From Erythrobacter neustonensis (GTDB lineage: Bacteria > Pseudomonadota > Alphaproteobacteria > Sphingomonadales > Sphingomonadaceae), in contig NZ_CP016033.1 of the NCBI RefSeq assembly GCF_001663175.1, forward strand, positions 310,001 through 374,000: a DNA stretch of 64,000 nt. Direction: 5' to 3'. The notes below the pieces were generated by a model. The model searched no databases and was not told the origin of the DNA. It saw nothing but the letters and a program-made list of their open reading frames with translations. The position numbers were made by a program, and so were the translations under genes. The first letter of the stretch is position 1, and every line of letters starts with the position of its first letter. Of this stretch, positions 42,368 to 58,232 are shown in pieces.

Positions 42368-43422
42368 GCGGGGTCTTCCGGGAAACGCGCTCGGGTGCGG
42401 TTGGCGAAGGCGACCAGCGAGAGCATCACCGGCACTTCGACCAGCACGCCAACCACGGTGGCAAGCGCCGCGCCGCTCGACAGGCCGAAGAGGCCGATGG
42501 CAACAGCTACGGCGAGCTCGAAGAAGTTGGATGTGCCGATCAGCGCGCAAGGCGCGGCAATCGCGTGCGGCACACGCCAAGCCCAGGCCCAGGCATAGGC
42601 GGCGGCGAAGATCGCATAGGACTGGATGATGATCGGCACCGCGATCAGCGCGATCAGCAGCGGGTTCGCGATAATCGTGCCCGCCTGAAAGGCGAACAGC
42701 AGCACCACGGTCGCCAGCAGGCCGATGATCGACCACGGCTTGAGCCGTGCAGTGAAGGCATCGACCGCCGCGGCATCTCCGCCATGACTGGCAATCACCC
42801 GTGAACGGGCCAGCGCGCCCGCCGCCAGCGGGATGACCACATAGAGCGCAACCGACAGCAGCAGCGTCTGCCACGGCACGACGACGGCGGTCACGCCCAG
42901 CAACAGCGCAACGATCGGCGCGAAGGCGACGATCATCACCAGATCGTTCGCCGCCACCTGCACCAGCGTGTAGGCAGGATCGCCCCGCGTCATCTGCGAC
43001 CACACGAACACCATCGCGGTGCAGGGTGCTGCGCCGAGCAGGATCAGCCCGGCGATATATTGCTGCGCGTCGGCGCGCGGCAGCAGGTCGGCATAGAGAT
43101 AATCAAAGAACAGCACCCCCAGCGCCGCCATGGTGAAGGGCTTGATCAGCCAGTTGATTACCAGCGTGATCACCAGCCCCTTGGGCTTCCTGCCGATGTC
43201 GCGGATGCTGCCGAAGTCGACCCCGACCATCATCGGGAAGATCATCGCCCAGATCAGCACCGCCACGACAAGGTTGACCGAGGCATATTCAAGCCCCGCC
43301 AGCATCCCGACCGCGTCCGGCGCGGCGCCCCCCAGCGCGAGCCCGGCGAGAATGGCAAGCAGCACCCAGAGCGAAAGAAAGCGCTCGAACAGACCGAGCG
43401 GCGAGGCGGCGGCGGCGCTCAT
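42364..43422 (-). CDS. acr3: ACR3 family arsenite efflux transporter
   Basis: 352-residue, ten-helix membrane protein of the ACR3 type. The conserved Cys in [13 protein letters not shown] and the [14 protein letters not shown] block are present. It extrudes arsenite using the proton motive force, with no ArsA ATPase nearby. Overlaps arsC by one base and arsH by four. Confidence 0.95.
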
Positions 43423-43928
43423 CAGGCGGTTCCTTCCATCGCGCCGATGTCGGCAAGAGCGGCTTGCAAGGTGGGCTTATCCAGCCCCGCCCGGTCGAGC
43501 GCGAGGAAGGCCCGCACCCGCATTTCCAGCAGACGCCAGGTTTCCTCGAAGGCAGCGTCGACCTCCGCTTCCGAGCCCGTCACATCAGCCGGATCAGGCA
43601 GCCCCCAATGGGCCTTGAGCGGACTGCCAAGGAACACCGGGCAGGCCTCGCCGGCCGCATTGCCGCAGACGGTGATCGCAAGGTCGATCGCGGGTGCATC
43701 GGGAGCGGTGAATTCGTCCCAGCTCTTCGACCGGAAAACGCCTGTGTCGATCCCGCGTCGCGCCAGTAGTCGCAACGCACCGGGATGCGGCACGCCCTTG
43801 GGCTTGCTGCCGGCGCTGAAGGCACGAACCCGGCCTTCCCCCAAGTGGTTGAAGAGCGCCTCGCCAAGGATCGAGCGGGCCGAGTTGCCGGTGCACAGCA
43901 CCAGAACGGTGAAGGGGGTATCACTCAT
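43422..43928 (-). CDS. arsC: Arsenate reductase ArsC (low-molecular-weight phosphatase fold)
   Basis: 168 residues. The P-loop CTGNSARS supplies the nucleophile Cys12; Cys88 and Cys96 ([14 protein letters not shown]) match the redox shuttle pair of thioredoxin-coupled ArsC. It reduces arsenate to arsenite for export by Acr3. A helical C-terminal extension of about 30 residues is present. Confidence 0.93.
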
Positions 43929-43937
43929 CGCAAGGCC

Positions 43938-44297
43938 TCAGTTTCGGGGATCGCAGGCAAGCCCAGCCATCAGGTCGCCGCACATCTCGGGCGCCCCTTG
44001 GCAGCAGTCTTGCACCAGAAAGGTCAGCAGGCGGCGCATCGCGGCATAGTCCGCGCGGTAGTGGATCAGGCGGCTCTCGCGCTCGGATTGCACCAGCCCT
44101 GCCCGCTCGAGCGTGGCAAGATGATGCGACATGGTCGACGGCGGGACTCCGCAATGCTCGGCAATAGAGCCCGCGATCATGCCATCGTGGCCCGCCGTCA
44201 CAAGCATCCGAAACACGGCGAGCCGCGTCTCATGAGCCAGCGCACCAAGCGCATCCACTGCCCAGACTTGTGTTTCGATATCGTCCATATCCGACAC
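43938..44297 (-). CDS. arsR: ArsR family arsenic-responsive repressor
   Basis: 119-residue winged-helix repressor with recognition helix region GVPPSTMSHHLATLERAGLV. Cys98, Cys99 and Cys106 near the C-terminus (DCCQGAPEMC) resemble the Cys95/96/102 arsenite site of Acidithiobacillus ArsR, rather than the CxC site of plasmid R773. First gene of arsR-arsC-acr3-arsH. Confidence 0.95.
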   Translation of the reverse strand: MSDMDDIETQVWAVDALGALAHETRLAVFRMLVTAGHDGMIAGSIAEHCGVPPSTMSHHLATLERAGLVQSERESRLIHYRADYAAMRRLLTFLVQDCCQGAPEMCGDLMAGLACDPRN

Positions 44298-44590: not shown

Positions 44591-45259
44591 CTATCGGTAT
44601 AGCCCGGCGGCCCTCAGCGCCTCGCTACGGCTGCGCACTTCAAGCTTGCGGTAGATCGACTTCACATGATTGCCGACCGTGTGCGGCGAGATGCCGAGAT
44701 CGCGGGCGGCTTCCTTGTAGCTGCGTCCGGCGGCGAAGGCGCGCAGCAGGTCATGCTCCCGCGCTGTCAGGCCATCGCTGTCGGGCGGGCCGGATTGGGT
44801 GCCGATCGGCGGGGTCTGGCGCAGGAGATCGATCAGATAGACCGCCGCTGCCGGGCTGACGGGTGCGCCGCCATCGAGCGTGATCGCCACGCCGTCGCGC
44901 ACCTGTTCGGGGGTACTGTCCTTGAGCAGATAGCCGTCCGCCCCCGCCGACAGCGCGCGCACCACGGTATCGCGGTCCCCGAATGCGCTGACCATCAATG
45001 CCTTGGCCGAGGTATGCGCCTTGATTTCGGGCACCAGATCATAACCCGATCCGTCAGGCAGGCCGATGTCCATCAGGAACAGGTCCGGCGCCAGTCCGAT
45101 CAGCGTCCGGCCCGATGCCAGATCATGCGCCACCCCGACGATCTCGTAGCGACCGGCCTCCATCAGCACCTTCACGAAATATTGCCGGACGGTCGGATCA
45201 TCCTCGATGATCGCGATGCGGGCAGGTGCGCTGAGGTCGCACGGTTCGGGGTCAGTCAT
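44591..45259 (-). CDS. NarL/FixJ family response regulator
   Basis: 222 residues: receiver domain with Asp64 (LFLMDIGLPDG) and Lys in LLKDS, then a LuxR-type helix-turn-helix (LTAREHDLLRAFAAGRSYKEAARDLGISPHTV, shown in part). Its partner kinase gene ends 69 bp upstream. A 15-bp palindrome in that gap suggests autoregulation. Confidence 0.94.
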   Translation of the reverse strand: MTDPEPCDLSAPARIAIIEDDPTVRQYFVKVLMEAGRYEIVGVAHDLASGRTLIGLAPDLFLMDIGLPDGSGYDLVPEIKAHTSAKALMVSAFGDRDTVVRALSAGADGYLLKDSTPEQVRDGVAITLDGGAPVSPAAAVYLIDLLRQTPPIGTQSGPPDSDGLTAREHDLLRAFAAGRSYKEAARDLGISPHTVGNHVKSIYRKLEVRSRSEALRAAGLYR

Positions 45260-45294
45260 GCAGGATGGCTATCACGCAAGCGGCGAGCGTGCCA

Positions 45295-45309
45295 TGCCAT
45301 GACATGGCA
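45295..45309. promoter_or_regulatory. 15-bp palindrome (copy 1), putative response-regulator operator
   Basis: TGCCATGACATGGCA, a perfect palindrome around a central A, in the gap between kinase and regulator genes. An additional TGCCAT half-site adjoins at 45290. The same motif recurs at 47324. Confidence 0.55.
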
Positions 45310-45328
45310 GGCGCGGCATGGTGGCTGG

Positions 45329-47254
45329 TCATGCTGCTTCGCGCAGTGACGCTGCGGGCAATGTCAGCGTTGCGATGGTGCCGATGCCCGGTTCGGATTC
45401 CAGCGCAAACTCGGCGCCGATACCCTCAGCACGGCGCGCCATATTACCAAGGCCACGGCCAGCCCCTGCAGCCGCAGTGCCTGATCCATTATCGGCCACC
45501 GTAATCGCCACCCTTTCAGTCGGACCGGCAGCCACAGTCACCTTCATGGAGGTCGCGCCCGAATGCTTGAGCGCGTTGGTGACCGCCTCTTGCAGGATGC
45601 GGAACAGCTGGAGCGTGTCACGCGGGCCAAAGGCGGGGAAGGCGAGATCTTCTGCCTGCTGCCAGTCAAAGGCAAGGCCAGCGGCGATGACCTGAGGCTG
45701 GATTCGCGCGCGAAAGGTGGCCAGCGCGGCCTCGACCGATTCGCCAACCGAATCCATTGAATCCACCATCAGCCGCATCTCGTCGATTACGCTCTGGAGG
45801 CCCTGCGCCACTTTGGACGGCTCGGCCTGCCCCATGCGCGCGGCGAGCATCATCGACATCAGCTGGCTGCCAAGGCCATCGTGAATGTCCTGCATGATCC
45901 GCCGCCGTTCGGCATCATGCGCCTGTTCGCGCACCAGTTCCTGCTCTCGCGCATAAGCGACGGCAAGTTCGGCCTCGCGCTGATCGACCTTGTCCTGAAG
46001 CATGGTGTTGAGCGCGCTCTGCGACTGGAACAGACGGAAGTTGCGGGCGAGGAACGCCGTCACCATTGCAAGCATCAGGAACGGCGCGGCGTTCTGGAGA
46101 TTGCCTTCGCCGAGCGGGGAATCGGGATAGAGGTTGGTTATCGCATCCATCGCCGTTGCCACCACCAGCACACTCATCAGGGCGCTCTCAAGCAGACGGT
46201 TTTCGCGCTCACGCGCAAAGTGCCACAGCAGCCGGGCCAGCGTTGCCGCGCTCAACCCAGCCAGAACGTAAAACCACACCACCGTCGGCGCATCATAGGC
46301 CTCAGGCATTGGCGTTCCGAGCAGTCGCCACAGGACGTAGGCCAGCGCCGCGCCGAAAACCGTGAGCACAGCAGGCATGAGCCTGCGCAAGGGGCGGCCT
46401 GTCCAGGCGTCGATGAAGCCGAGCAGCGCCACCGGCACGAACATGTTGATCGCAAAGAACAGCGCCATTCGCCACCACCCGTCGAATGGCGGCGCGAGCC
46501 ACAGGCCATAGAGATAATTGGCCACCAGCGCGCCGGACAGGACGCTAAGCCAGGTGGCGAAGCGCCAGTCATCCGACCGGAACACCATCACCGTGGCAAT
46601 CAGACCGAGCAGCCCCAGAAGCAGCGCGGCGTAGTCGCGGAACGCGTTGAGGTTCCAAAGACGCGCTGCAGAATAGGCGCGCATCGCTTCGTATTCGCCG
46701 ACCAGTGGCGGGTAGATGTCGGTATAGGGGAACCCGTCGCGTAGTGTGATGTAGGTCAGCCGGTTATCGCCCTGCTTCAGCAGCCCCGCCGGAATGCGGG
46801 TGAGGAAGGTCTTCTGCCCGTGAAACGTGCCTGCCCCCGGCGTGACGCTGCCTTCGCCCACCAGCAGCGCGTCGTTCACATAAAGCCGGTAGTTGTCCAC
46901 CTGCAAGGTCGACACGATGCCAAGCCCGGTGGGCGGCACGTCATCGACATTGATGGCAATTTCCACTGCAAAAATCGCAGTGTCACAGCAGTGGGTCCAA
47001 GGCAACTGCACGTCCTCGAACCGCGCCTCGCGCGCTGCTGCCAGCGTGGGCGTTTCAAGCCGGGCGATGCGGGTTGCGGTCTGCTCGATCTGCGGCGGAG
47101 CCTCGCCTCGGTGAGCGCGGAACAGGGGACCATCGATCAGCAGCCAGAACACGGCCTGCACCACAAGGATCGTTGCCACCAGCTTGCCCAGCTGGCGCCA
47201 CTTCATTTGCCCCGACAAATTCAGCCCCCTGAAATTCTTCTTATCCGCATTCAT
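45329..47254 (-). CDS. Sensor histidine kinase with 7TM (DISM-like) membrane region
   Basis: 641 residues. N-terminal transmembrane helix, an extracytoplasmic sensor domain of about 150 residues (contains an HCC triplet in WTHCCDTAIF), seven hydrophobic segments (about residues 195-395), a coiled coil, then HisKA_3 with IMQDIHDGLGSQLMSMM (phospho-His) and an ATPase domain with LQEAVTNALKHSG and GRGLGNMARRAEGIGA. ATG 47254 is the preferred start; an in-frame ATG at 47206 is possible. It is divergent from the secreted-protein cluster and probably controls it through the regulator at 44591. Confidence 0.9.
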   Translation of the reverse strand: MNADKKNFRGLNLSGQMKWRQLGKLVATILVVQAVFWLLIDGPLFRAHRGEAPPQIEQTATRIARLETPTLAAAREARFEDVQLPWTHCCDTAIFAVEIAINVDDVPPTGLGIVSTLQVDNYRLYVNDALLVGEGSVTPGAGTFHGQKTFLTRIPAGLLKQGDNRLTYITLRDGFPYTDIYPPLVGEYEAMRAYSAARLWNLNAFRDYAALLLGLLGLIATVMVFRSDDWRFATWLSVLSGALVANYLYGLWLAPPFDGWWRMALFFAINMFVPVALLGFIDAWTGRPLRRLMPAVLTVFGAALAYVLWRLLGTPMPEAYDAPTVVWFYVLAGLSAATLARLLWHFARERENRLLESALMSVLVVATAMDAITNLYPDSPLGEGNLQNAAPFLMLAMVTAFLARNFRLFQSQSALNTMLQDKVDQREAELAVAYAREQELVREQAHDAERRRIMQDIHDGLGSQLMSMMLAARMGQAEPSKVAQGLQSVIDEMRLMVDSMDSVGESVEAALATFRARIQPQVIAAGLAFDWQQAEDLAFPAFGPRDTLQLFRILQEAVTNALKHSGATSMKVTVAAGPTERVAITVADNGSGTAAAGAGRGLGNMARRAEGIGAEFALESEPGIGTIATLTLPAASLREAA

Positions 47255-47323
47255 TAGCAAGCGTTTGCCGTCACGCAACTGCGGGCTAACTGTGGGTTGC
47301 TGGCAAAAGTCGGTCCGGCGGGA

Positions 47324-47338
47324 TGCCATGATATGGCA
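47324..47338. promoter_or_regulatory. 15-bp palindrome (copy 2) in the divergent promoter
   Basis: TGCCATGATATGGCA, one base away from copy 1 at 45295, located between the divergent kinase gene and the first secreted-protein gene. A further ATGGCA half-site follows at 47348. Confidence 0.55.
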
Positions 47339-47437
47339 GCATGATTCATGGCATGGGACAGTGCCGTTCTGAGGCTTAGCAGGCTCTCCATCGCATCAGG
47401 CAGTGGTTTCAGGCTGCCGCAACATGGGGAACCCGAC

Positions 47438-47734
47438 ATGAAACTGCGTCTCGCCATTGGCCTTGGCGGCCTGCACCTTTCGCTGCTTTCGGCGCTGGCC
47501 TTTGCCAGCATGGGCGCGCCTGCAATGGCGCAGGGCCAGAACGAGGCGGCGGTCAAGAAGCCCAGCGGCGGGGTCGCCTGCCCCTCGGGCTGGCGCTCGG
47601 TCCCCGGTAACACCTCGATGTGCGAACCGCACGAGAGCAAGGCGCCGCTGATCTACGCCAAGAAGGACAAGGAAACCTGCGCGGACGGCTATTACGAAGT
47701 CTACCGCCTGTGGTGCTCCACCCGTCGTCCGTAA
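47438..47734 (+). CDS. Small secreted protein with one four-cysteine module
   Basis: 98 residues with a signal peptide (cleavage near APAMAQ). The mature part carries four cysteines: CPSGW...C, then C 19 residues later, then WC 12 residues after that. The same spacing is found twice in each of the two larger proteins that follow. ATG 47438 is chosen for the signal peptide; the frame is open from 47348. No known family recognised. First gene of the rightward cluster opposite the kinase. Confidence 0.82.
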   Translation: MKLRLAIGLGGLHLSLLSALAFASMGAPAMAQGQNEAAVKKPSGGVACPSGWRSVPGNTSMCEPHESKAPLIYAKKDKETCADGYYEVYRLWCSTRRP

Positions 47735-47758
47735 GCCTCAAAGGGGGGGGGAATTAAA

Positions 47759-48694
47759 ATGCGGAAATCACTCATGTCAGCCGCTGCGGCGGTATTGCTG
47801 GCGCTTGGCGGATTGGCAGCAGCCAGCCCGGCGGCCGCGCAGACCGGCCCGGCAACGATCCCGGCCGCTTCGAACGGCGGCTGCCCGGACGAATACACCC
47901 GCGGCACATCGATCAGCCCCAAAAAGGGCCAGACCAATCCTGACCTGTGTTACGCAGACGGCAAGTCGCCGCCGATGGTGGCAATGAAGCGGACCACGTC
48001 TGAACCGTGCCCGTCGGGCTTACGTCCGGACAGCAGTTCCAGCTATTTTTGCACGAGCAAGCCCCAAGAGCGCACATGGTCGGCGGAAAACAACCTCGCC
48101 AAGGACACCAAGCTGCCCAAGCCGTCCAAGGGCGTGCGCTGTCCGACTGGGTGGGCATCCACCACGCAGCTCGACAGCTGCTACACCACGCTCGACAACC
48201 CCCCGGCAACCCGGTTGAGCAAGGGCAAGCCCTGCGCCGCTGGCGAGATCGAGGAATGGGGCACCTGGTGCACCGGCGATCTTTCGGGCGTGACCCGCGC
48301 CAATGCCGAAGGCCATGCCTCGGCCGATTTCAACAAGGTGTATATGCACCTCCAGAGCAGCGGCGGTGATTGGCAGGGCATGAAGTGCTGCGTCTCTCCG
48401 GCGGCCTCGGCCTGGTACGCTGAAAGGGGCCAATACCGCACCATGCGCATCAACGGGGAAGATGTGCCCGTCGATGACAATGGCAACCCGGTAAAGGGCG
48501 CTGGTAAAGCCGTCGCATCCGGCAGTGGTGGCAACGAAAGCACCACTGGCGACGAAACCCCGGCCAGCCAATGCACCAGCGGTTCTTCGACAGGCGCCGC
48601 GATCGGGAGCGCGATCGGTGGAGATGCCGGTGCAGCGCTGGGATCAATGCTCGGCGGTCTCGGCAAGAAGAAAAAGAAGAAGGCCGGCTGCTGA
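47759..48694 (+). CDS. Secreted protein: two four-Cys modules, Gly-zipper and poly-Lys/Cys tail (paralogue A)
   Basis: 311 residues with a signal peptide (cleavage near PAAAQT). Module 1 begins GGCPDEYTRG and ends YFCTSKP; module 2 begins VRCPTGWAST, has CYTTLDNPPATRLSKGKPC and ends TWCTGD. A glycine- and serine-rich linker follows, then a glycine-zipper-like helix (TGAAIGSAIGGDAGAALG) and the tail GSMLGGLGKKKKKKAGC, with a terminal Cys. An extra CC pair (MKCCVSP) lies between. The ribosome site is a run of nine G, 7 bp before ATG 47759. Function unknown. Confidence 0.85.
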   Translation: MRKSLMSAAAAVLLALGGLAAASPAAAQTGPATIPAASNGGCPDEYTRGTSISPKKGQTNPDLCYADGKSPPMVAMKRTTSEPCPSGLRPDSSSSYFCTSKPQERTWSAENNLAKDTKLPKPSKGVRCPTGWASTTQLDSCYTTLDNPPATRLSKGKPCAAGEIEEWGTWCTGDLSGVTRANAEGHASADFNKVYMHLQSSGGDWQGMKCCVSPAASAWYAERGQYRTMRINGEDVPVDDNGNPVKGAGKAVASGSGGNESTTGDETPASQCTSGSSTGAAIGSAIGGDAGAALGSMLGGLGKKKKKKAGC

Positions 48695-48717
48695 CCATCC
48701 AGCGCCGCACGATCCAA

Positions 48718-48746
48718 GCTGCCCCGCCTTGGGGGGGAGGGGCAGC
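48718..48746 (+). terminator. GC-rich intercistronic hairpin between the two paralogues
   Basis: Perfect 8-bp arms GCTGCCCC / GGGGCAGC enclosing GCC...GGGGGGG. No T-run follows, so it is more likely an mRNA-stabilising or attenuating hairpin than a full terminator. A weaker hairpin of similar type (about 49767-49800) follows the second paralogue. Confidence 0.4.
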
Positions 48747-48806
48747 GGGCGGGTGTGCAACGCGATCGCGATCCGCACCCGCCCCATCACTTCATGGAGA
48801 TTTTCT

Positions 48807-49757
48807 ATGAAACTGCTTTTGTCCGCCACCGCCGCCAGCCTGCTGGGCCTTGCCTTCTCAGCAGCCCCTGCCGCCGCGCAGCAGACTGGTCCGGCAACCA
48901 TTGAGGTCGCGAGGACGGGCTCTTCGTGCCCAAGCGAATATCGCAGGGGTGGTAGCGGCGTATCTATCGGAAACAGACCGACGAGTCCGACAATGTGTTA
49001 CGCTTACAGTGACACGCCGCCTTACGTGATGAAGAAGGCCAGCCTTTCGGACCCGTGCCCGGCCGGTCTGCGCGCGGAGAGCAGCGGGAGCCTGTGGTGC
49101 ACCAACAAGCCCGAAGCGCGCGGCATGGCACCTGAACAATGGCTGGCGAAGGGCAAATTCCCCAAACCGTCCAAGGCCGCGCGGTGCCCGGCGACCTACC
49201 GCAGCAGCCTCGATTTCACCGAATGCTACACCTCGATCGACAACCCGCCCGCCGTGCGCCTGTCGAAGGGCAGGCCCTGCGGCCCGGACGAGGTGAACGA
49301 GTTCGATCTGTGGTGCACTTCGCGCTTCGATCACCTGCCCTATTCGGAAATCGAATCCGCAGCCTTCGGTGACTATGCCAAGCTGCTCGATCTGGCAGCG
49401 GCAGAAGGCCGACCCTACAGCACGGTGCCGGGCAACGGGCAGGAAAACAAGGCCTCGCCCGGGATCCGCGCCTGGTATCAGGCGCAGGGCAAGCTGACCA
49501 CGGCTGCCGCAGCCCCCGCCGCCTCCGGCCCGTCCAAGGGTGACCACACCAGCGCCGCAGAAGACGAAGCGCGCGGCATGGCCGCAGCGCGGGGCATGAC
49601 GGGCAGCAATGCCGGCCAGCCCGCCCCGGCCCAGTGCAACAGCGGATCGGCCACGGGCGCTGCCATCGGCGGCGCGGTCGGCGGGGATGCCGGCGCGAAG
49701 ATCGGCTCGATGCTGGGCGGCCTTGGCAAGAAGAAGAAAAAGCAGGCCGGCTGCTGA
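48807..49757 (+). CDS. Secreted protein: two four-Cys modules, Gly-zipper and poly-Lys/Cys tail (paralogue B)
   Basis: 316 residues, paralogous to the protein at 47759. Signal peptide (near PAAAQQ), then module 1 (SSCPSEYRRG ... LWCTNKP), module 2 (ARCPATYRSS, CYTSIDNPPAVRLSKGRPC, LWCTSR), a helical and low-complexity region, and the near-identical tail (TGAAIGGAVGGDAGAKIG, GSMLGGLGKKKKKQAGC). ATG 48807 is preceded by GGAG. The tail is more conserved between the two copies than the modules, which argues that it is functional. Confidence 0.86.
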   Translation: MKLLLSATAASLLGLAFSAAPAAAQQTGPATIEVARTGSSCPSEYRRGGSGVSIGNRPTSPTMCYAYSDTPPYVMKKASLSDPCPAGLRAESSGSLWCTNKPEARGMAPEQWLAKGKFPKPSKAARCPATYRSSLDFTECYTSIDNPPAVRLSKGRPCGPDEVNEFDLWCTSRFDHLPYSEIESAAFGDYAKLLDLAAAEGRPYSTVPGNGQENKASPGIRAWYQAQGKLTTAAAAPAASGPSKGDHTSAAEDEARGMAAARGMTGSNAGQPAPAQCNSGSATGAAIGGAVGGDAGAKIGSMLGGLGKKKKKQAGC

Positions 49758-49868
49758 CGACAAAGCCTCCCGCAGTTCAAATGCGACCCGTTTGCGGGGG
49801 GTAGACTGGCGGGCGTGCACGGCTTTGGACACTGCGCGCCCGCCTTTTTCGCGAGAAAGGATGCCTCG

Positions 49869-50267
49869 ATGAAATCCCGTTTCCTGATGACCGCTGCGGC
49901 CTTGTTCGCGATCGTAGCGCCTCTCGCCCCAGCTATGGCGCAGCCCGCGCCCGAACTCGTCTTCGCCTTGCCGGTGACCGACGGGATGGAAAGCGAGCCG
50001 GTCTCGAACGTGCAGCTTACCTTCAACACCAACGTGACCATCAGTCATGTCGACATCGAAACGCCCGATGGCGTCAAGCTGGTGCTGTTCGATGTGATGG
50101 CCAATGACGGCGAAGGTCAGACCAGCATGGTGTTCAGCTTCGATCTGCCCGTGCCGATCGTTGCCCCCGGCCAGTATTTCATCAATTACGTCGCCGAGGT
50201 GAACCGCAAGGACGGCACCAGCGACAGCGTTTCGGCCCATTCCTCCTTCACCATGCTGGAGCAGTGA
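49869..50267 (+). CDS. CopC-fold periplasmic protein without canonical copper ligands (1)
   Basis: 132 residues with a signal peptide (cleavage near APAMAQ) and the beta-sandwich pattern of CopC/YobA: an ALPVTDGMESEPVSNVQLTF opening and a C-terminal YFINYVAEVNRKDGTS strand pair. CopC normally has His at the mature N-terminus and a DGH motif; neither is present here. It is therefore CopC-like in fold but perhaps not in metal binding. ATG 49869 is preceded by AAAGGA. Overlaps the next gene by one base. Confidence 0.7.
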   Translation: MKSRFLMTAAALFAIVAPLAPAMAQPAPELVFALPVTDGMESEPVSNVQLTFNTNVTISHVDIETPDGVKLVLFDVMANDGEGQTSMVFSFDLPVPIVAPGQYFINYVAEVNRKDGTSDSVSAHSSFTMLEQ

Positions 50268-50692
50268 TGCGCGGCCGCCTGATCCTGCCGGCCCTTGCGG
50301 CGGTGCTGGCCAGCCCGGCAGCGGCGGAAAAGCTTGACGCGCGGGCGATGCTCGTCGCCTCCACACCCGCCAAGGACAGCACGGTAGAAGCCGGGCTGGA
50401 CACCATCACCCTGACCTTTGCCGAACCTGCCGAGGTCATCAGCGTGACGCTGCGCCTGCCTGACGACAGTGAAATGGCGCCTGTTCCCGAGGCCCCGGCC
50501 AGACGTGGGCGGCAGAAGGACTATCGTTACCGCCTGCTAGCGCCGCTGGAGCAGCCGGGGAGCTACGCGATCTCCTACCTCCTCATATCGAAATCGTTCA
50601 AATCGTTGAACGGCTTCATCGATTTCCAGATCGCGGGCGAGGAAGCGGTCGCGGCCAGCGAATATGCTGCCGAACCGGAGACCGAAGAATGA
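50267..50692 (+). CDS. CopC-fold periplasmic protein without canonical copper ligands (2)
   Basis: 141 residues with a signal peptide (cleavage near PAAAEK). The mature part starts with the CopC-like phrase LVASTPAKDSTVEAGLDTITL and ends with YAISYLLISKSFKSLNGF, again without the DGH copper motif. The last residues are acidic (EPETEE). The ATG at 50267 overlaps the previous stop (TGATG); the GTG at 50264 is an alternative. Confidence 0.7.
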   Translation: MRGRLILPALAAVLASPAAAEKLDARAMLVASTPAKDSTVEAGLDTITLTFAEPAEVISVTLRLPDDSEMAPVPEAPARRGRQKDYRYRLLAPLEQPGSYAISYLLISKSFKSLNGFIDFQIAGEEAVAASEYAAEPETEE

Positions 50693-51075
50693 GCCACACC
50701 CGCATCCTTCCAGCAGCGCTGCTGCTGGGGCTTGGCGTTTGCTACACCGCCAGCGCCGCTTCAGAGGCGCCGCAGGCCAAAGTTTCGCCCAGCTTCAACT
50801 GCGCCAAGGCGCGCGCCGGCAGCATCGACAAGGTGATCTGCGCCAGCCCGGAACTCTCGCAGCTCGATCGCGACATGGACGAGGACTACATGCGCGCCAT
50901 GGCCGAAACCCCGCGCGCGATGTGGCCGGATATCCTCGCCGAACAGCGCGAATTCATCCGCAGCCGCAACAAGTGCATGGGGATCAAGAAGCAGCGGCAC
51001 CACTGCATCGCTTTCGCGTATGAATCCCGCATCCAGCGGCTGGCCGACTGGATCGACGGTTCGTGGCAGGAATAG
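50689..51075 (+). CDS. LprI/DUF1311 family secreted protein
   Basis: 128 residues with a signal peptide and the LprI (DUF1311) pattern: SFNCAKARAGSIDKVICAS, LSQLDRDMDEDY, EQREFIRSRNKC and CIAFAYESRIQRL. The four cysteines should pair. LprI of Mycobacterium inhibits lysozyme, but most DUF1311 proteins are untested. Overlaps the CopC-like gene by 4 bp. Confidence 0.82.
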   Translation: MSHTRILPAALLLGLGVCYTASAASEAPQAKVSPSFNCAKARAGSIDKVICASPELSQLDRDMDEDYMRAMAETPRAMWPDILAEQREFIRSRNKCMGIKKQRHHCIAFAYESRIQRLADWIDGSWQE

Positions 51076-51087
51076 GGAGGCGCTAAG

Positions 51088-52113
51088 ATGGCGATGATGC
51101 GATCCGCGGTGATGGCAGCCGGCCTGCTGGCATTCCTCCCCGCGCCCGCCAAGGCCAACGACACACAGGCGGCGCTCGGCCTCGGCGGGCTGATCTTCGA
51201 ACGCAGCGACGAGATCGCAATGGAAAGCGAGGATCTCTACCTGTCTCACGACAAGGTGCGCGTGCGCTATACCTACCGCAATCTGACCAGCAAGCCGGTG
51301 ACCATCCTCGTCGCCTTCCCGCTGCCCGATGTGCCGCTGGATGGCCGCGATCTGGAATGGATCGAAAGCGCCTATCCCGACTGGGACGCGATCGGCATGA
51401 CGACCAAGGTCGATGGCAAGCAGGTTGAATTACTGCGCATCGATGTGCCCAAGCTTGGCGGCAAGGACATCTCGGCAAGGCTCAAGGAACGCGGTTGGCC
51501 GGTGCGATATTGGCAGGACGAGGGCTTTCACGCCCGCCTTGCCGCGCTTTCCGCAGACGACAAGTCCGAACTGGTGGGCGAGGGCCTGCTCAGCGCGGAT
51601 CAGTTGACCGGACACGAATTGCGTCCGCTGTGGACCGTCTCGACCGCCTTCGTGCGCACGCAGACCTTTCCCCCTGGCAAGGCCGTGACGGTCGAGCACG
51701 CCTATGAACCCATGATCGGGGGTACGGTCACTTCGGCGCTCGACCGCGAGGCGCGGTATGAGAGCATGGCCGGGCCTGACGGCTACGAAGCGCGCTACTG
51801 CGTCGATGGTCCGTTCCTGCGCGGCTATGATCGCCGCCGCTACACCGCAGATGGCGGGCGCATTGAAACAGTCATGCCGGTCGAAACCTGGCTCAGCTAT
51901 GTGCTGGCCACCGGCGCCAATTGGAAGGGGCCGATCAAGCGGTTCAAACTGACGGTGGACAAGCCCGGCCCGCAGGTGCTGGTCAGCCTGTGCATGGATG
52001 GTCTGACGAGAGTTTCCCCCACCCGGTTCGAAGTGGTGAAAACCGATTTCGAGCCCACTCGCGACATTGACATTCTCTTTCTCGAGGTAGTCTCATCCGA
52101 TGGCGGCAGCTAA
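51088..52113 (+). CDS. DUF4424 family secreted protein
   Basis: 341 residues with a signal peptide (cleavage near PAKAND), matching DUF4424 in its opening (AALGLGGLIFERSDEIAMESE) and VAFPLPDVP. It is all-beta and periplasmic by prediction. The function of the family is unknown. A good ribosome site (GGGAGG) precedes ATG 51088. Confidence 0.83.
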   Translation: MAMMRSAVMAAGLLAFLPAPAKANDTQAALGLGGLIFERSDEIAMESEDLYLSHDKVRVRYTYRNLTSKPVTILVAFPLPDVPLDGRDLEWIESAYPDWDAIGMTTKVDGKQVELLRIDVPKLGGKDISARLKERGWPVRYWQDEGFHARLAALSADDKSELVGEGLLSADQLTGHELRPLWTVSTAFVRTQTFPPGKAVTVEHAYEPMIGGTVTSALDREARYESMAGPDGYEARYCVDGPFLRGYDRRRYTADGGRIETVMPVETWLSYVLATGANWKGPIKRFKLTVDKPGPQVLVSLCMDGLTRVSPTRFEVVKTDFEPTRDIDILFLEVVSSDGGS

Positions 52114-52697
52114 GATGGGGGCACGTTTGGAATGACGCGAAATGCGCCACATAAATCCGGCCGATGCACAAGGGCCGGCACTCTTTATTGCGCGGTCTGC
52201 CGAACGCGGCTGAGCCCGTCACTTGAAATAGCCACACGACCGGCGCTTGATCAGGCACCGATAGCCTTCGCGCATGGAACCCCGGTCGTTCCCACTGGCC
52301 ATGCCATCCGTTCGTCACAGCCTGCGCCCTGGATTTCAGCAGCGTGCCGGATACTCATGTCGGTCCCGCAACACTGGCTTAATCCGGACGATGTGGCAGC
52401 GTGGGTCCAAGAGGCTGCTGACGGATCGGGCATGTCGGGTTGCTGTGGGCCGACAGGGGTGTCGGGGCCCAACCAGCAATGTCGCCGTTGCAGGTCACTT
52501 GTCGGTGTGTTGCAGGACGACTGCATAACGCCGCGCGTTTTCATGCCAGACCCGGAAAAGACGTTCTGGGCCGAAAAAGATGCCGACCATCTGCCGTGGT
52601 GAATGCCCCGGTCGGCAACCCCGTTCCAGGGTCTGGCGTTTCGTCGTTTTTCTACAATCAACCATGAGCACATTGTGAAAATCGGCGATTCGCCGGT
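52114..52697. other. 584-base gap in the secreted-protein cluster
   Basis: No strong gene and lower GC than the flanks. It contains one doubtful small Cys-rich ORF (see 52357) and an eight-G run just after the next start (about 52720-52727). A new promoter for the second half of the cluster is likely here, but I could not identify it. Confidence 0.5.
52357..52602 (+). CDS. Doubtful small cysteine-rich ORF
   Basis: 81 residues if it starts at ATG 52357 (open from 52132). The region MSGCCGPTGVSGPN, CRRC and DDCITPRVFMPDPEKTFW is protein-like in composition, with six cysteines. There is no signal peptide or recognised family, and the upstream part looks non-coding. It may be a real small gene or the relic of one. 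Confidence 0.3.
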   Translation: MSVPQHWLNPDDVAAWVQEAADGSGMSGCCGPTGVSGPNQQCRRCRSLVGVLQDDCITPRVFMPDPEKTFWAEKDADHLPW

Positions 52698-53507
52698 ATG
52701 TCCGTATGGTGTTCGGCGCTGCGGGGGGGGTATCGCGATTTGTCGGGATTGATTTTGTCATCGCAGGCTGCGCTGGGCCTTCTGGCATGCGCTCACGCCT
52801 ATGACATTGCGCGCAAGGAAAACCCTCTCGATCCCCGGCTTCGCGAGCATGCAGCCATTCTGGCGCGGCAGGTGGACGACTTTGGTCACGCCGGTTCTGA
52901 AAGCGATCCGTCCGGATCGTCGCTGGCCGATGGCTGGGCCACGATGGTGACCCAGTGCGACACGCAGTTCCGGCAACCCTTTGGCGAGGTGTCGGATTGG
53001 CTGGCACATGGCGCGGGATACGCAAATCCTTCCCCGGATCCGGCCGCACTCGAATGGAACCGCAAGGCAGCCGCAGCTGGCAGCGCGGAAGGTCTTTGGC
53101 GCGTGGGTCATGCTTATCGCTATGCAGGGTCCGGGGTGACACCTGACCGAGAGGAAGCGCATCGCTGGTTCCGTATGGCGGCAGCGCGCGGGCATCCCGA
53201 TGCCGCGTTGCAACTCTATCAGGACCTCTACCCCGACGATGCGCCGGGAGCTGCGTCAGCCGATGCCATCGCGCTGCTTGATCTGGCGCTTGCAGGCCGC
53301 CTCCCCGATGCCGCTTACCAGATGGCTCTTGCAATCTTTCTGGGCGTGCGGGGCAATGGCGATCCGGTTCTGGCAGCCGCCTGGATGCACATTGCCGCAC
53401 GCGAGGGCAGCGAACTCGGGATCGACTCATTGCCCAATGTGCTCGAGCCGCTGAACTCTGCACAGCGCGAGGCCGCGCTGGTGCTTTCCCGAACGCTCCA
53501 GAAATAG
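52698..53507 (+). CDS. Sel1-like repeat protein
   Basis: 269 residues with Sel1/TPR-like repeats (AALEWNRKAAAAGSAEGLWRVGHAY, then EAHRWFRMAAARGHPDAALQL). The N-terminus (SGLILSSQAALGLLACAHAYD) is hydrophobic but not a clean signal peptide, so the true start may lie elsewhere or the 5' end may be altered near the G8 run at about 52720. It probably acts as a protein-protein scaffold in the envelope. Confidence 0.7.
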   Translation: MSVWCSALRGGYRDLSGLILSSQAALGLLACAHAYDIARKENPLDPRLREHAAILARQVDDFGHAGSESDPSGSSLADGWATMVTQCDTQFRQPFGEVSDWLAHGAGYANPSPDPAALEWNRKAAAAGSAEGLWRVGHAYRYAGSGVTPDREEAHRWFRMAAARGHPDAALQLYQDLYPDDAPGAASADAIALLDLALAGRLPDAAYQMALAIFLGVRGNGDPVLAAAWMHIAAREGSELGIDSLPNVLEPLNSAQREAALVLSRTLQK

Positions 53508-53516
53508 GATTTGCCG

Positions 53517-53813
53517 ATGTTTATCCTGTCCCTTGCTTTGCTGGCGGCATCATCGACGGCGCCCGATCCCTACATCTGTCTCGGCACCACCGCGCGCGCC
53601 ATTGCAGAGCTCCGCGAAGCTGGACGCGAGCCGGAGGCTCGGCTGCTTGCCGCGCAGTCGATCTGGCTGGATCAGGTTCGCCCGGCCGTGCCCGGCACGG
53701 CCGATGCCAGCCTGATCGAGGATGCCCGCATCAGCCGGATTGACCAGCCGCGACGCGCCTTTCGCCGCGATCTGAAGCGCTGCCTTGCCCAGACGCCAAA
53801 GCCTGCCAAGTGA
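53517..53813 (+). CDS. Small secreted protein, unknown
   Basis: 98 residues with a short signal peptide (MFILSLALLAASSTA) and two cysteines (YICLGT near the N-terminus and KRCLAQ near the C-terminus) in a mostly helical chain. AGGA precedes ATG 53517. No family recognised; its spacing (9 bp after the Sel1 gene, overlap with the next) places it in the operon. Confidence 0.72.
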   Translation: MFILSLALLAASSTAPDPYICLGTTARAIAELREAGREPEARLLAAQSIWLDQVRPAVPGTADASLIEDARISRIDQPRRAFRRDLKRCLAQTPKPAK

Positions 53814-53827
53814 AGGTGCAGCATCGG

Positions 53828-54943
53828 ATGATGAAGACTGCGATCGCCGCTTTCGGTTTGCTACTCGCCAGCGCCGCGCAAGCGACCACGTCCTGTGTGG
53901 ATTCCGCCCATGCCCCGCTTGAAGGGCAATCGAACGTGCCCCTGCCCACCGGGTTCGAGCCGTGCGATACCGGCGCGCTGATTGCCAAGGGCGACACCAA
54001 TATCTGGCGCTGTAAGGTGCAGCCCGGCTTCGAAGACAAGGTCGGCGCGACCTATCTTGTCGTCATCGAACAGGGCGGCCGGATCGTCGCGACCGAACGC
54101 GACGACATGGAGCAGGGGCCGCTCGATGCGCTGCGCTGGTACGAGGTCGATTTCGACCGCGACGGCGCCCACGAACATGTCATCGCCCGCCGGGTCATGG
54201 AAACGCCCGCGCATGCCATCCAGCAATGGCGGGTCAGCATCCATTCGGCAGACTGGAGCAAGGTCATCACCAGCTTTGATGGGGTGGAGGATTTCGGCCC
54301 CGATGCCATCTTCCGCGATAGTCCGGATGAAGGGTGCCTCATCCTCCAGACCCGCTATGAGGCGCTGCCGGGCGAAGGCGAGCAACTGGCGCTGAAGGGC
54401 AGCCTGTGGGCGATCGTGGATGATGAGCCCGTCGCACTGGCAGAAGAGCCCGAACCCCGCGTGCTGGATGCCGCCTTCATCGCCGAGCGCCAGCAAGCGC
54501 CCTACCCTGACGACTACATGCGCACGCCCTTCCGCTGGCTGTACGGGCGTGATCATGAGGCGGAACAGGCCGCGACAAGCCCGCAAGATGAAGCCGCCGC
54601 CAAACTGCTTGGCGCGGTGCGCGGCTATGTCCTGCTGGGCGAGGCGTGCCGCGAACCGCTGGGCAACGATCTGGCCAATGCCTTCGCGATCAATGCGCGC
54701 GCCGCGCTGGAAAGGCTGGGCGGCGATGCCGCAGCCGCGCAAGTCTTCGTCAAGGAGGCGAGCGAAGTCGCCGCCTACAACTGCGCGGGCGAGGGCCCAT
54801 GCTGGCGCAAATATTTCGATATGCCGGATGCCACCGACGCGCAGGGCTTTGCCGCCTGCGCCACCGCCGCTGCGCAAGCGCAGGAAGATTTCAGCACGAT
54901 CATGGTCACCGCAATGACCATGGGGTCGTCACAGGAGCGTTGA
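53828..54943 (+). CDS. Secreted protein with DxDxDG-like loop, unknown
   Basis: 371 residues with a signal peptide (MMKTAIAAFGLLLASAAQA). It contains a calcium-loop-like DFDRDGAHEHV at about residue 110, as in FG-GAP/VCBS blades, and scattered cysteines (YNCAGEGPCW). ATG 53828 and 53831 are adjacent; a GTG at 53810 overlapping the previous stop is an alternative. No family recognised. Confidence 0.72.
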   Translation: MMKTAIAAFGLLLASAAQATTSCVDSAHAPLEGQSNVPLPTGFEPCDTGALIAKGDTNIWRCKVQPGFEDKVGATYLVVIEQGGRIVATERDDMEQGPLDALRWYEVDFDRDGAHEHVIARRVMETPAHAIQQWRVSIHSADWSKVITSFDGVEDFGPDAIFRDSPDEGCLILQTRYEALPGEGEQLALKGSLWAIVDDEPVALAEEPEPRVLDAAFIAERQQAPYPDDYMRTPFRWLYGRDHEAEQAATSPQDEAAAKLLGAVRGYVLLGEACREPLGNDLANAFAINARAALERLGGDAAAAQVFVKEASEVAAYNCAGEGPCWRKYFDMPDATDAQGFAACATAAAQAQEDFSTIMVTAMTMGSSQER

Positions 54944-54945
54944 GA

Positions 54946-56586
54946 ATGAAAAGACTGTTGTGGCTGCTGCTCGCCCTTGTTTCCGCCGTGCTGAACCCCG
55001 TCGCGGCGTTGGCGCAAGACGGCGCTGCGCTCAGGCCGGTGCCGGTCGCGCTGAACGGCGCGGATGAGATGAAGCTGAAGGGTGACTTATGCCGATATGG
55101 CTTTGTCGCATCGGAAACGAGGAAATTCAGCGGCGATGAGCGCTTGGCCGCTTGCCGCGAAGCCTATGTCGGTTTCGGCGGTAGTGCGTTCCACCGGAAC
55201 GATATGGCAATGAGCCTGTGTGTCGACAGGAAAAAGACCGGCACTTTCCAGATCGCCGCGCAGGACAGGGATCTCTGTTACAACGCGGCCGTCGATACCT
55301 TTGCGGTGACGCTTACCGAACCCCTCAGCGTCCATTCCCAGCTTCTCGACGCGCTGCCTGCGCTGTGCGATGCCGGGCACTATAAAAGCTGTGTGCTTCT
55401 TGCACGCATCTCGATGCTGCGGCCCAAGGAATTCGCATCGCCGCTGTCGGCGGCCGATGCCGTAGCGACGCTTGAGCGGGCGTGCACGGCGAAGACCCGA
55501 ACCGCCTGCTATTATACCGCACAGATCGCGTTCAAGGCCAAGGATTGGGCACGGACAGGCACTTTTCTTCGGCAGGAATGCGCGCTTGGCACCAAGGACG
55601 TGTGCGATGAAATCACGCGTCTCGGCTCACGCGGCGATGCAGGTTTCGAATTTGCCAGAGGGATGTACAAGTCCGACATCGAATTGTTCGACGAAGCCTG
55701 CTGGCGCGACGAGGACAGGTCCAGCTGCTTCATCGTGGCCCGGTACAAACAGCGGGTCAAGGAACTCGACATATCGACGGCGCGCCGCGCATGTTTCACG
55801 GGCGATGCCGGTTTTTGCGAAGACTTGGCGAAGCAGGAAGCCTTCGAAGGCGATCTCGGCAAGGTTGACGATGCCTTGTATCGCGGCTGCCGGCTCGACA
55901 TCGGTCTTTGCGATGAACTGGTAAATTATCGTTCGGGCAAGCTCGTTTACGAACGCTCGCCCGATTTCCTGCCGCCTGATCCGCAATATATTGCGGCGCG
56001 GCTCGTCGAAAGCCGGGCCGCACGCGATGCATCGGGCAAGCCGGCGGCGACCTTCTTTGAAATCATGCTGTGCGACATCGGCGATCTTTCGGCGTGCAAG
56101 GAACTTGGGATGAAGGTTCCGCGCGACACGCCATCCTTTACAATGCCGCCAATCAATGAATTCGTCAGCAAGGTGCAGGCCAAGGCCGACGAGAAATGCC
56201 GACAAAAGCGCGAGGCGGATTTCTGCCGCGAAATGGCGATCGTGCTGCGCCCGCGCTTCAACGGCGAGCAGGCGATCGACATGCCGCGCGCCGCGCGTTT
56301 CGGTGCGGCGGCGTGCATGCTCGGCAAGATCGACATGTGCGGTTTCTCCGGCGTCGCTCTGGTCGAAGGCCAGCACGGCGGCCCGCCCGATCGCAAGAAC
56401 GGCAGCGCGCTGCTCGACAAGGGGTGTAGCGGGCGCGATGCAGCGGCGTGCTATTTCTTCGCCACGGTCCTTGCACAGGATGGCCGGTTTGATCAGGCCA
56501 AACTTGCCGCGCAGACTGCGCTTCAAATCAACCCCGCCTTTGCCGAAGCAAAGGACCTTCTCGCCAAGCTGAATCAGGAGCAATGA
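54946..56586 (+). CDS. Secreted Hcp-like cysteine-rich Sel1 repeat protein
   Basis: 546 residues with a signal peptide (ending VAALAQ). About ten short repeats carry a Cys pair spaced by 6-8 residues, for example ERACTAKTRTACYY, EECALGTKDVC-type, EACWRDEDRSSCF, RACFTGDAGFC and KGCSGRDAAACYFF. This is the pattern of Helicobacter cysteine-rich (Hcp) proteins, in which each helix pair is closed by a disulfide. It ends with a TPR-like helix pair. CAGGAG precedes ATG 54946; overlaps the next gene by 4 bp. Confidence 0.8.
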   Translation: MKRLLWLLLALVSAVLNPVAALAQDGAALRPVPVALNGADEMKLKGDLCRYGFVASETRKFSGDERLAACREAYVGFGGSAFHRNDMAMSLCVDRKKTGTFQIAAQDRDLCYNAAVDTFAVTLTEPLSVHSQLLDALPALCDAGHYKSCVLLARISMLRPKEFASPLSAADAVATLERACTAKTRTACYYTAQIAFKAKDWARTGTFLRQECALGTKDVCDEITRLGSRGDAGFEFARGMYKSDIELFDEACWRDEDRSSCFIVARYKQRVKELDISTARRACFTGDAGFCEDLAKQEAFEGDLGKVDDALYRGCRLDIGLCDELVNYRSGKLVYERSPDFLPPDPQYIAARLVESRAARDASGKPAATFFEIMLCDIGDLSACKELGMKVPRDTPSFTMPPINEFVSKVQAKADEKCRQKREADFCREMAIVLRPRFNGEQAIDMPRAARFGAAACMLGKIDMCGFSGVALVEGQHGGPPDRKNGSALLDKGCSGRDAAACYFFATVLAQDGRFDQAKLAAQTALQINPAFAEAKDLLAKLNQEQ

Positions 56587-57605
56587 TGCCGCTTTCTTCA
56601 TTCTCTCGCGCGGCGCTCCGCCATGCACTCGCTGGTACGGCCATGGCGATGGCCACTGCAACCATGGCTGCACCCACTCCGCGCGGCGTGCCGAAAGAGG
56701 TGTACGCCGCGGTCAAGGCGCGCTTCGGCACGGCTCACGCTGCCTTGTATGAAGGCGCTGACGGAGCGCCCGTGGTGCCGCAGCCACCGACCGTTATGTT
56801 CCGCAAGGTCGACATCAACCGCGACGGCACTTCCGATTGGCTGGTCGATTACGAACGCGCCAGCACCGTAATCGGCGGGTTGTGCGGCACCGGCGGATGC
56901 CTGAAACAGGTCTTTGTCTCGCGCGGTGATGGCAGTTACGGGCTCGGCTTTGCTGCCCAAGCGATCAAAATCACCGTGAAGCGCGCAAATTCCGCCATGC
57001 CGGCGGTTCTTGCGAACATGCACGGGGTTCATTGTGGCGGAACGGGCAGCGATGCCTGCGTAATCCCGATGCGATGGGAACCCACCGCAGGCAGGCTGGT
57101 GCCTGTTGCTTACCCAGACGGTGCCGCCGTTATCCGACCTTTTGACGCATTGGCCGATGCCCCCGTGGCCGCGCCGCCCACCATTCTCGCAAAGCGCGAT
57201 GCGGATCGCGCGATCTGCGAAAAAGCGGGCTTCACCTTGCCGGACGCAGATGGCGAAAGCGCCACTTACCCCTTTCTCGATGTTAACGGCGATGCGATCC
57301 TCGACTGGATTGTCCAGCCGTATTGTATGCAGTCGGAGACCGATGACCCGGTCGAAACGCCGGACGGCGCCCAAGCCGCCATGCCGGTGCTCGACAATGC
57401 CGTGTTCGTCAGCCGCGGTTCGGATTTCGTGAATGTATGGTCTGGTCCGGACAGCCTGGCGTTCGACTTGACTGGGGCTCAGCCGGCTATGGTGGTGTCA
57501 CAGGAGGGTTCGATCTGCGACAACGATGAAGCGGGCGCCTGTGATGCCACAACAACCTACATCTGGGACAAAGTCTCCAGCAAGATCATGATATTGGCGC
57601 AATAG
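56583..57605 (+). CDS. Secreted protein with two EF-like/FG-GAP calcium loops, unknown
   Basis: 340 residues with a signal peptide (cleavage near TMAAPT). Two loops DINRDGTSDWLVD and DVNGDAILDWIV have the D-x-D/N-x-D/N-G pattern of calcium-binding FG-GAP or dockerin-type repeats, about 160 residues apart, so the protein is probably a duplicated domain. Cysteines occur in GLCGTGGC. Related in style to the protein at 53828. Last rightward gene of the cluster. Confidence 0.75.
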   Translation: MMPLSSFSRAALRHALAGTAMAMATATMAAPTPRGVPKEVYAAVKARFGTAHAALYEGADGAPVVPQPPTVMFRKVDINRDGTSDWLVDYERASTVIGGLCGTGGCLKQVFVSRGDGSYGLGFAAQAIKITVKRANSAMPAVLANMHGVHCGGTGSDACVIPMRWEPTAGRLVPVAYPDGAAVIRPFDALADAPVAAPPTILAKRDADRAICEKAGFTLPDADGESATYPFLDVNGDAILDWIVQPYCMQSETDDPVETPDGAQAAMPVLDNAVFVSRGSDFVNVWSGPDSLAFDLTGAQPAMVVSQEGSICDNDEAGACDATTTYIWDKVSSKIMILAQ

Positions 57606-57824
57606 ATAATCCACACCTTCTCTGTCGCGGCGGGAATCGCAGTTCATCATCCAGTGCCGACAAGAGCAGCTGCGCCTCGCGGGAGCGATTGCAATTGCTT
57701 TTCCAACGCGGCCAGAACAGAATAGTGCAACCACTCCGTCTGTTTGATCGACCGGTCGATTGGCATTTCATTTCGATCGGACACGATCATCAGTTGGCCG
57801 TCTTCAGAAACTTACAGGCCGCTT

Positions 57825-58232
57825 TTAGCCCTCTAACGCTGCCAGCGCTTGCTTAGCTTGGCTGTAACCGGGATCCAGCGATAAGGCGCGACGCATGTAC
57901 ATTTTGGCCTTGACGCGATCCTGTCCGACCGGGTCGCCATTGGCGTAAATCGCGCCCAAATTGTAGCAGGCCCGAGCACTGCCCCGATCGCAACCCTTTG
58001 CGAACAGTGCCATCCCTTTCCATTTGTCCTGGATCAGGCCCCAGCCTTCGTAATACAGAAGGCCAAGGTTGTAGCAGGCATCGCCTTCACCACGATCACA
58101 AGCGATCGAATACTCAGGGACTCCGACCTGTGCTTGCAGGGCCGGCGCAAGCAGATACATCCCGACCATAGATATGAAAGCTGTGGGCATAAGGGAAAAG
58201 CCAGATTTGATCGATTTCCTCGATTTTGTCAT
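57825..58232 (-). CDS. Small Hcp-like Sel1 repeat protein
   Basis: 135 residues. A hydrophobic N-terminal segment (about 13-35) is a signal or anchor; the mature part has two Sel1/Hcp repeats with C-x7-C pairs (ACDRGEGDACYNLG and GCDRGSARACYNLG) and a final TPR-like helix pair. ATG 58232 is preceded by GGGGAAGGG; the frame is open to 58292. It is convergent with the cluster and shares its repeat type. Confidence 0.85.
   Translation of the reverse strand: MTKSRKSIKSGFSLMPTAFISMVGMYLLAPALQAQVGVPEYSIACDRGEGDACYNLGLLYYEGWGLIQDKWKGMALFAKGCDRGSARACYNLGAIYANGDPVGQDRVKAKMYMRRALSLDPGYSQAKQALAALEG

Follow-up and report, generated by a model that had tools for sequence, protein, structure and literature searches.

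Organization of the locus

The window analyzed here, a stretch of 64,000 nucleotides from Erythrobacter neustonensis (bases 310001-374000 of a 3.09 Mb genome in one contig), harbors a response regulator and a sensor kinase (44591-47254, minus strand) that diverge from a set of secreted-protein genes, g1 to g7 (47438-52113, plus strand), an opposed arrangement that bears out the original prediction (Table 1). Further rightward come a 156-aa ORF (to 52602), g8 to g12 (52698-57605), and then a leftward Sel1 gene, beyond which lie genes for a radical-SAM protein and a HerA helicase. The rightward genes had been read as one continuous run with frequent start/stop overlaps; the overlaps are present (g4/g5, g5/g6, g9/g10, and g11/g12), but the run is interrupted at 52114-52697, a gap containing a single ORF of 156 aa, and the locus is made of two parts, the core g1-g7 and the accessory half g8-g12. 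Most of the products carry signal peptides (assigned by eye), much as predicted.

Table 1. Features of the locus, with positions in the window
Feature	Position	Strand	Remarks
arsR, LMWP-type arsC, ACR3-like SBF transporter	42364-44297	-	ars operon directly behind the regulator
NarL/LuxR-type response regulator, recognition-helix N197	44591..45259	-	PF00072 8.1e-19, PF00196 3.9e-15
Sensor histidine kinase: TM, extracytoplasmic beta-sandwich with CC pair (C89,C90), 7 TM, HisKA_3 and HATPase	45329..47254	-	domain matches and model
Predicted operator, three half-sites ATGCCATGATATGGCA-N-CAT-N4-CATGGCAT	47323..47354	+	upstream of g1
Putative -10-like element, CTTAGC in the window	47375..47380	+	
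g1: 98-aa secreted, single 4-Cys module	47438..47734	+	
g2: secreted, two 4-Cys modules, C-terminal glycine zipper, end KKKKKKAGC	47759..48694	+	structure model made
g3: g2 paralogue	48807..49757	+	46% identity
g4: CopC-fold-like secreted protein without CopC copper-ligand motif	49869..50267	+	
g5: CopC-fold-like secreted protein without CopC copper-ligand motif	50264..50692	+	
g6: LprI/DUF1311-like secreted protein	50689..51075	+	
g7: DUF4424 secreted protein	51088..52113	+	
Small Cys-rich ORF, 156 aa	52132..52602	+	like C-terminal part of B1 784-aa YadA-head ORF
g8 (accessory): Sel1 repeats	52698..53507	+	lipobox-like LLAC by eye; start approximate
g9 (accessory): 100-aa secreted protein	53511..53813	+	
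g10 (accessory)	53810..54943	+	without family match
g11 (accessory): Cys-rich	54946..56586	+	weak TPR
g12 (accessory)	56583..57605	+	B1 homologue is N-terminal domain of 1430-aa TPR-CHAT protein
Sel1-repeat secreted protein	57825..58232	-	domain match

On the left, the ars operon is flanked by an ORF at 41615 that we take to be arsH-like. By tblastn, none of the 22 other loci matched the ars genes; in the protein clustering, arsR alone matched one ORF, in the module-free locus L071. On the right, the terminal Sel1 gene has no match next to the core in the same 22 loci and is probably a neighbor rather than a member. The repeats originally called Hcp-like are in fact Sel1/TPR repeats.

The accessory half was met again only in Novosphingobium sp. 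B1, g11 having a strong match in just 1 of 16 other genomes and a weak one (2.4e-4) in G357. In B1, g10 is split into two ORFs, g7 and g8 are separated by the 784-aa YadA-head ORF and a small gene, and the 1430-aa g12-TPR-CHAT protein is followed by an OmpA-family protein. The window's 156-aa ORF, which has no Pfam match, shares 53% identity over 146 aa with the C-terminal part of the B1 YadA-head protein (L016:3213-5567). The B1 ORF at L156:4833-9125 unites the g12 homologue, TPR repeats, and a CHAT (caspase-like) domain behind a signal-like N terminus.

Secreted proteins of the core

Like g2, its paralogue g3 has two 4-Cys modules. The tails of g2 and g3 consist of a glycine zipper, then lysines, then a terminal Cys; the glycine-zipper matches fall below the curated cut-off, and Cys is the C-terminal residue in 19 of 20 aligned g2-family members and second-last in the remaining one. 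A profile search found no PDB sequence relative, and the g2 model, which can be used from residue 29 to 250, resembles no fold in the PDB, so that joint assembly of the secreted set is a guess.

The CopC-like, LprI-like, and DUF4424 assignments made earlier from the letters were recovered by Pfam. The g4/g5 pair matches PF04234 at 4.7e-11 and 1.4e-4, the latter just under the cut-off, and g5 scores 32.3 against a cut-off of 95 in the NCBIfam CopC model. CopC proteins bind copper through an N-terminal His and an H-x3-G motif. The ligand motif, searched as H-x3-G-x-[FYWI], occurs in none of 20 CopC-like members, an N-terminal-His-like pattern occurs in one, and the members are His-poor (0-3 each). 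Metal binding by these proteins is therefore unlikely, and a copper/CopC reading of g4/g5 was dropped because the motif is absent. The g6 product, secreted and with an LprI-type Cys pattern as in LprI/ScwA (PF07007), matches that family at 3.2e-4 with 21.5 bits, just below the curated cut-off of 22. The g7 product is a full-length member of the DUF4424 family (PF14415; lpg2210, PDB 4g2a), matched at 7.7e-83 with 278.6 bits over positions 1-306 of 306.

Sensor kinase and response regulator

The AlphaFold2 model of the kinase (DSSP elements, with helices called transmembrane by eye) comprises a transmembrane helix, a beta-sandwich (58-187), seven helices, and a DesK-like core; the 7TM region after the extracytoplasmic beta-domain agrees with the 7TM-type kinase proposed earlier. 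Its best PDB sequence matches are DesK and VraS, DesK matching by fold as well, and its closest named relatives come from Novosphingobium sp. ERN07 and B1. In 7TMR-DISM kinases, 7 TM helices come after an extracytoplasmic beta-domain, and the model, with helices assigned by eye, has this same architecture. Because no Pfam 7TMR-DISM domain matched the kinase at E<=0.1, we suggest that it works like such kinases and do not class it as a member.

An HCC triplet had been pointed out in the sensor domain; its cysteines are conserved, but its histidine is not, the preceding residue being H, Y, or D among relatives. The vicinal CC pair is found in the sensors of all 22 module kinases examined. It is present in 14/14 class-1 sensors beside modules and in L158, and in 7/7 class-2 sensors (including the L083 chimera) at another alignment position (RECC); 2 of 5 module-free paralogous kinases also have it. 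The occurrence of adjacent cysteines at two positions in two sensor types, beside Cys-rich outputs, suggests that they may serve in thiol sensing. The chimeric kinase at L083:13455-15335 carries a class-2 sensor on a class-1 kinase core, and its regulator and operator are class-1.

The regulator, with a receiver and a GerE helix-turn-helix, lies beside a HisKA_3/HATPase kinase, as is the rule for NarL-type two-component systems; its best PDB sequence match is NarL (1a04), and NarL, VraR, and DesR are among the best.

Conservation and distribution of the module

Stretches were fetched around relatives of the kinase and of g2, and genes were called by a codon-usage script. Fifteen loci share the orthologous core: the window, L015, L016, L033, L034, L067, L068, L069, L075, L076, L077, L081, L082, L083 (counted by its kinase core only), and L157; 13 of the 14 non-window loci were reached by kinase searches, and L157 was reached via g2. 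The module thus recurs in 14 further loci, with shuffled gene order, and at least one module gene is divergent from the kinase in 15/15. Beside the orthologous kinase, g1-type genes are found in 14 of these 15 loci, g2-type in 13, CopC-like in 12, DUF4424 in 8, and LprI-like in 6; L033, which lacks g1, retains a remnant g1 leader by our reading of the alignment. By contrast, module genes accompany none of five paralogous kinases reached by the kinase search (L070-L073, 36-41% identical; L074, 29% overall and 50% over the kinase core), a count that leaves out two further matches on short contigs of G390.

Independent scattering, which would have spoken against a common system, is not seen for the core, and the regulator pair and the secreted core therefore form a real evolutionary unit. 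The proposal that the genes make up one unit holds for the core, linked in 15/15 orthologous loci, but not for the whole span, because g8-g12 were seen again only in B1.

Within the window's genus, the kinase was found at E<=1e-60 in 11 of 114 genomes, six of them at >=57% identity, and all six of the latter have g2-type genes. Five further genus genomes have g2-type genes; L194 holds a full module at a contig edge, L190 and L195 have g2-type genes beside class-2 kinase-regulator pairs, and L191-L193 hold stand-alone g2-like variants with no kinase within the fetched stretch (two genomes, plus a second copy in one class-2 or contig-edge g2 genome). In L158, a locus fetched because of its g2-like gene, a distant kinase (44%) lies ~2 kb from that gene, and no operator match was found there. 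At the family level, the g2 profile matches 10 of 397 sampled genomes, in 4 of 96 genera.

DUF4424 occurs in 24 of 398 genomes of a phylum sample. Seventeen matched places were fetched, of which 14 were evaluable (in L113, L114, and L121 the window-trained gene caller did not call the DUF4424 gene), and none of the 14 neighborhoods outside this group contains g1, g2, g4/g5 (CopC-like), or g6 (LprI-like) genes. DUF4424 neighbors outside sphingomonads were accordingly dropped as a functional clue. In the literature searched, by title or abstract start and with subscription journals mostly outside the search, no description of the module was found, nor, by title, any sphingomonad paper on DUF4424.

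In two genomes, 1064-aa BNR/Sortilin-Vps10 proteins are encoded near modules (L159:6371-9565 and L081:3149-6343).

A predicted operator at fixed distance from a -10-like element

Aligning the kinase/module intergenic regions revealed a conserved element of two classes, ATGCCAYGATATGGCA-N-CAT-N4-CATGGCAT and ATCCCATGATATGGGA-NN-CAT-N4-CATGGGAT, which differ by a G-to-C change at all three half-sites (TGCCAT versus TCCCAT). In class-1 loci having g1, the element is located upstream of this gene, also where g1 is separated from the kinase by g7 or g6-g7. Because this predicted operator is in front of g1, it would tie the regulator to the module genes, the link that the original prediction had supposed. 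Strong sites (<=3 mismatches) number 17, in 16 loci; a CTA starts at offset 21 nt after the element in 16 of the 17 (the window has TTA), and TA occupies offsets 22-23 in every one. The element may act as a class II activator site.

In the window, the shortened operator pattern matches once with 0 mismatches, as against 0.05 matches with up to 3 mismatches in shuffles, a comparison that is partly circular in that the pattern was derived from the window site and its relatives; besides 47323-47354, no second operator was found in the window within 5 mismatches. A whole-genome search of 12 module genomes returned one site in 11 and two in B1. With the S-degenerate longer-spacer pattern, one site was found in 7 of 12 genomes and none in the other 5 (shorter-spacer class), and the TGCCAT-class pattern, run on 11 genomes, gave one site in 4, two in B1, and none in 6; reversed-pattern controls on whole genomes gave 0 sites. 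The second B1 site precedes the YadA-head ORF with an identical 21-nt spacing.

Six loci have g7 or g6-g7 interposed between kinase and g1; in this position these genes need another promoter, and none was found for them in class 1. The class-2 circuits (L079, L080, L084, L159, L190, and L195) have a different palindrome, ATCCCGYRATCRCGGGAT-like, before g6/g1/g2 in L079, L080, L159, and L190 and in weak form in L084 and L195, with one 3-mismatch chance match in the module-free L071.

Genome G154 has four module loci (L077-L080). A kinase-regulator pair was called next to three of them, both class 1 and class 2 being represented. The remaining locus, L078, shows a weak class-1-like operator before g2, with 3 mismatches to the short-spacer form within the fetched stretch; it lacks CTA at offset 21, was missed by the genome-wide patterns, and does not enter the 17-site count, which did not take in that locus. 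G154 may be a case of pathway insulation.

Hairpin scores of g1 leaders exceed those of 664 control leaders (Mann-Whitney p 0.0008); because just 4 of the 17 leaders score above the 95th percentile of the controls, an RNA leader hairpin is a lead only. In the g1 leaders of L033, L068, L080, L083, and L157 the ribosome site falls within the hairpin 3' arm, and some arms have changed yet still pair, e.g. CCTGTTGC/GCAACAGG versus CTCCTTC/GAAGGAG.

Coupling between regulator and predicted operator

All five TGCCAT loci have SPHTVG-N-HVK as the recognition helix, and the ten TCCCAT loci have SPHTVG-T-HVK (with V replaced by I in one), so that operator class matches the helix residue (N/T) in 15/15 loci. 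Eight regulator columns separate the classes, and one of them lies within the recognition helix. N197 aligns with NarL V189 (numbering counted by hand from the alignment). V189 of NarL touches bases; a literature search for this base contact found nothing. In a tree of kinase plus receiver, from which the output domain was excluded (14 labeled rows and 2 outgroup rows, L083, with its chimeric kinase, being omitted), the operator/residue state has changed at least twice. The AU test rejects a single clade for the TCCCAT rows (p 0.018) and for the TGCCAT rows (p 0.0045), the groups having been named after the pattern was seen. Transfer of an entire module can move operator and regulator together.

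Discussion

The gene content and its conservation, as well as the candidate operator, its spacing, and its coupling to the regulator, can be read directly from the genomes compared, and a kinase-regulator-promoter circuit is, at this sequence level, well supported. We favor, with some confidence, the explanation that the locus is a self-contained signaling circuit with a secreted output, an envelope assembly that may be redox-triggered. The 7TM sensor kinase would read an envelope signal and phosphorylate its NarL-type partner, which would bind the three-half-site operator before g1 and, 21 nt upstream of the -10-like element, serve as a class II activator of g1 and the genes that follow; activation is here presumed rather than repression. 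The products, namely 4-Cys proteins stapled by disulfides and ending in a glycine zipper, CopC-fold proteins of Ig-like type, and the LprI-like and DUF4424 proteins, would be exported and oxidized. Most likely they would build or protect an assembly in the periplasm or at the cell surface in response to a disturbed thiol/disulfide balance of the envelope. Both the disulfides and the joint assembly of these products are presumed.

The stimulus is the weakest step. Because the vicinal Cys pair is found in every module kinase sensor examined (22/22), thiol/disulfide (redox) stress of the envelope is the best guess, albeit a tentative one, and the redox part of the stress response originally proposed can still be entertained. 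The reading in its entirety, i.e. redox-gated envelope building in which a vicinal-Cys kinase and a nearly one-promoter regulator drive a disulfide-stapled, glycine-zipper-anchored assembly of non-PDB fold, with operator and one helix residue co-switched at least twice and class-1 and class-2 circuits insulated within one genome, is speculative, and we would not expect all of it to hold.

Among the alternatives, a peptidoglycan/cell-wall or lysozyme-stress system, in which the LprI-like g6 and the Sel1/TPR proteins control wall enzymes, seems unlikely. It would be consistent with the LprI-like nature of g6 and with ScwA, a periplasmic protein that has an LprI domain and two disulfides and is reported to alter murein hydrolase levels (PMC7933661), as well as with the YARHG partner of DUF4424, tied to peptidoglycan in the accessible part of Coggill et al. 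However, g6 is present in 6 of 15 loci only, ScwA is reported not to affect lysozyme resistance, no wall-binding domain was found in the core proteins of the window, and the lysozyme part of the earlier stress reading goes back to a family name only.

There is a similarly small chance that the circuit turns on surface proteins for attachment or biofilm formation, to which the second B1 operator before the YadA-head ORF, the OmpA-family protein ending the B1 cluster, and the glycine-zipper tails (below the curated cut-off) might point. Against this, the YadA-head/OmpA context was seen in one genome only, tblastn recovers in the window just the C-terminal part of the YadA-head ORF and no YadA head, and no OmpA gene is present among the scanned genes of the locus.

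A metal-response locus, with CopC-like proteins buffering copper (or arsenite) and the kinase Cys pair sensing the metal, is very improbable. Vicinal thiols bind As(III), and such ligands, the CopC Pfam matches of g4 and g5, and the arsR-arsC-acr3-type genes next door would all be in keeping with it; however, the copper-ligand motif is absent from 20/20 CopC-like members, which are His-poor, g5 stays far below the NCBIfam score, and the ars genes do not travel with the module, arsR reappearing only in the module-free L071. The metal part of the earlier stress reading is not supported, the same motif being absent. Just as improbable is a patchy accessory island whose genes co-travel without joint function, as the rarity of the module in the family, its shuffled order and copy number, and the three module loci of G154 besides the orthologue might suggest, since the fixed 21-nt spacing and the operator/residue coupling indicate that the regulatory link has been maintained.

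The self-contained circuit that we favor shares with NarXL, DesKR, and VraSR, NarL/FixJ-type regulators with DesK-type kinases, a HisKA_3 kinase, a receiver with GerE output, and, in the predicted operator, inverted half-sites, but its sensor differs, and 11 of the 12 module genomes searched have a single strong target site, B1 having two. Whereas NarL recognizes a 7-2-7 arrangement, according to the available part of the source (PMC4549865), the half-sites here are 3 bp apart and accompanied by a third. The CopC-like proteins, with a weak to moderate domain match, differ from CopC in lacking the copper-ligand motif. The accessible portion of the 2013 DUF4424 family paper reports no recurrent gene neighbors and proposes complexes with enzymes (PMC3848476), whereas a recurrent neighborhood is found here, seen only in sphingomonad loci.

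Together, these data describe a predicted three-half-site operator with a fixed 21-nt spacing before g1, which is new here, and a circuit whose strong target sites would number one or two in each genome. DUF4424 gains a reproducible set of genomic partners together with a regulator, and the module supplies a small natural experiment on transcription-factor specificity, in which one recognition-helix residue has switched against one operator base at least twice.
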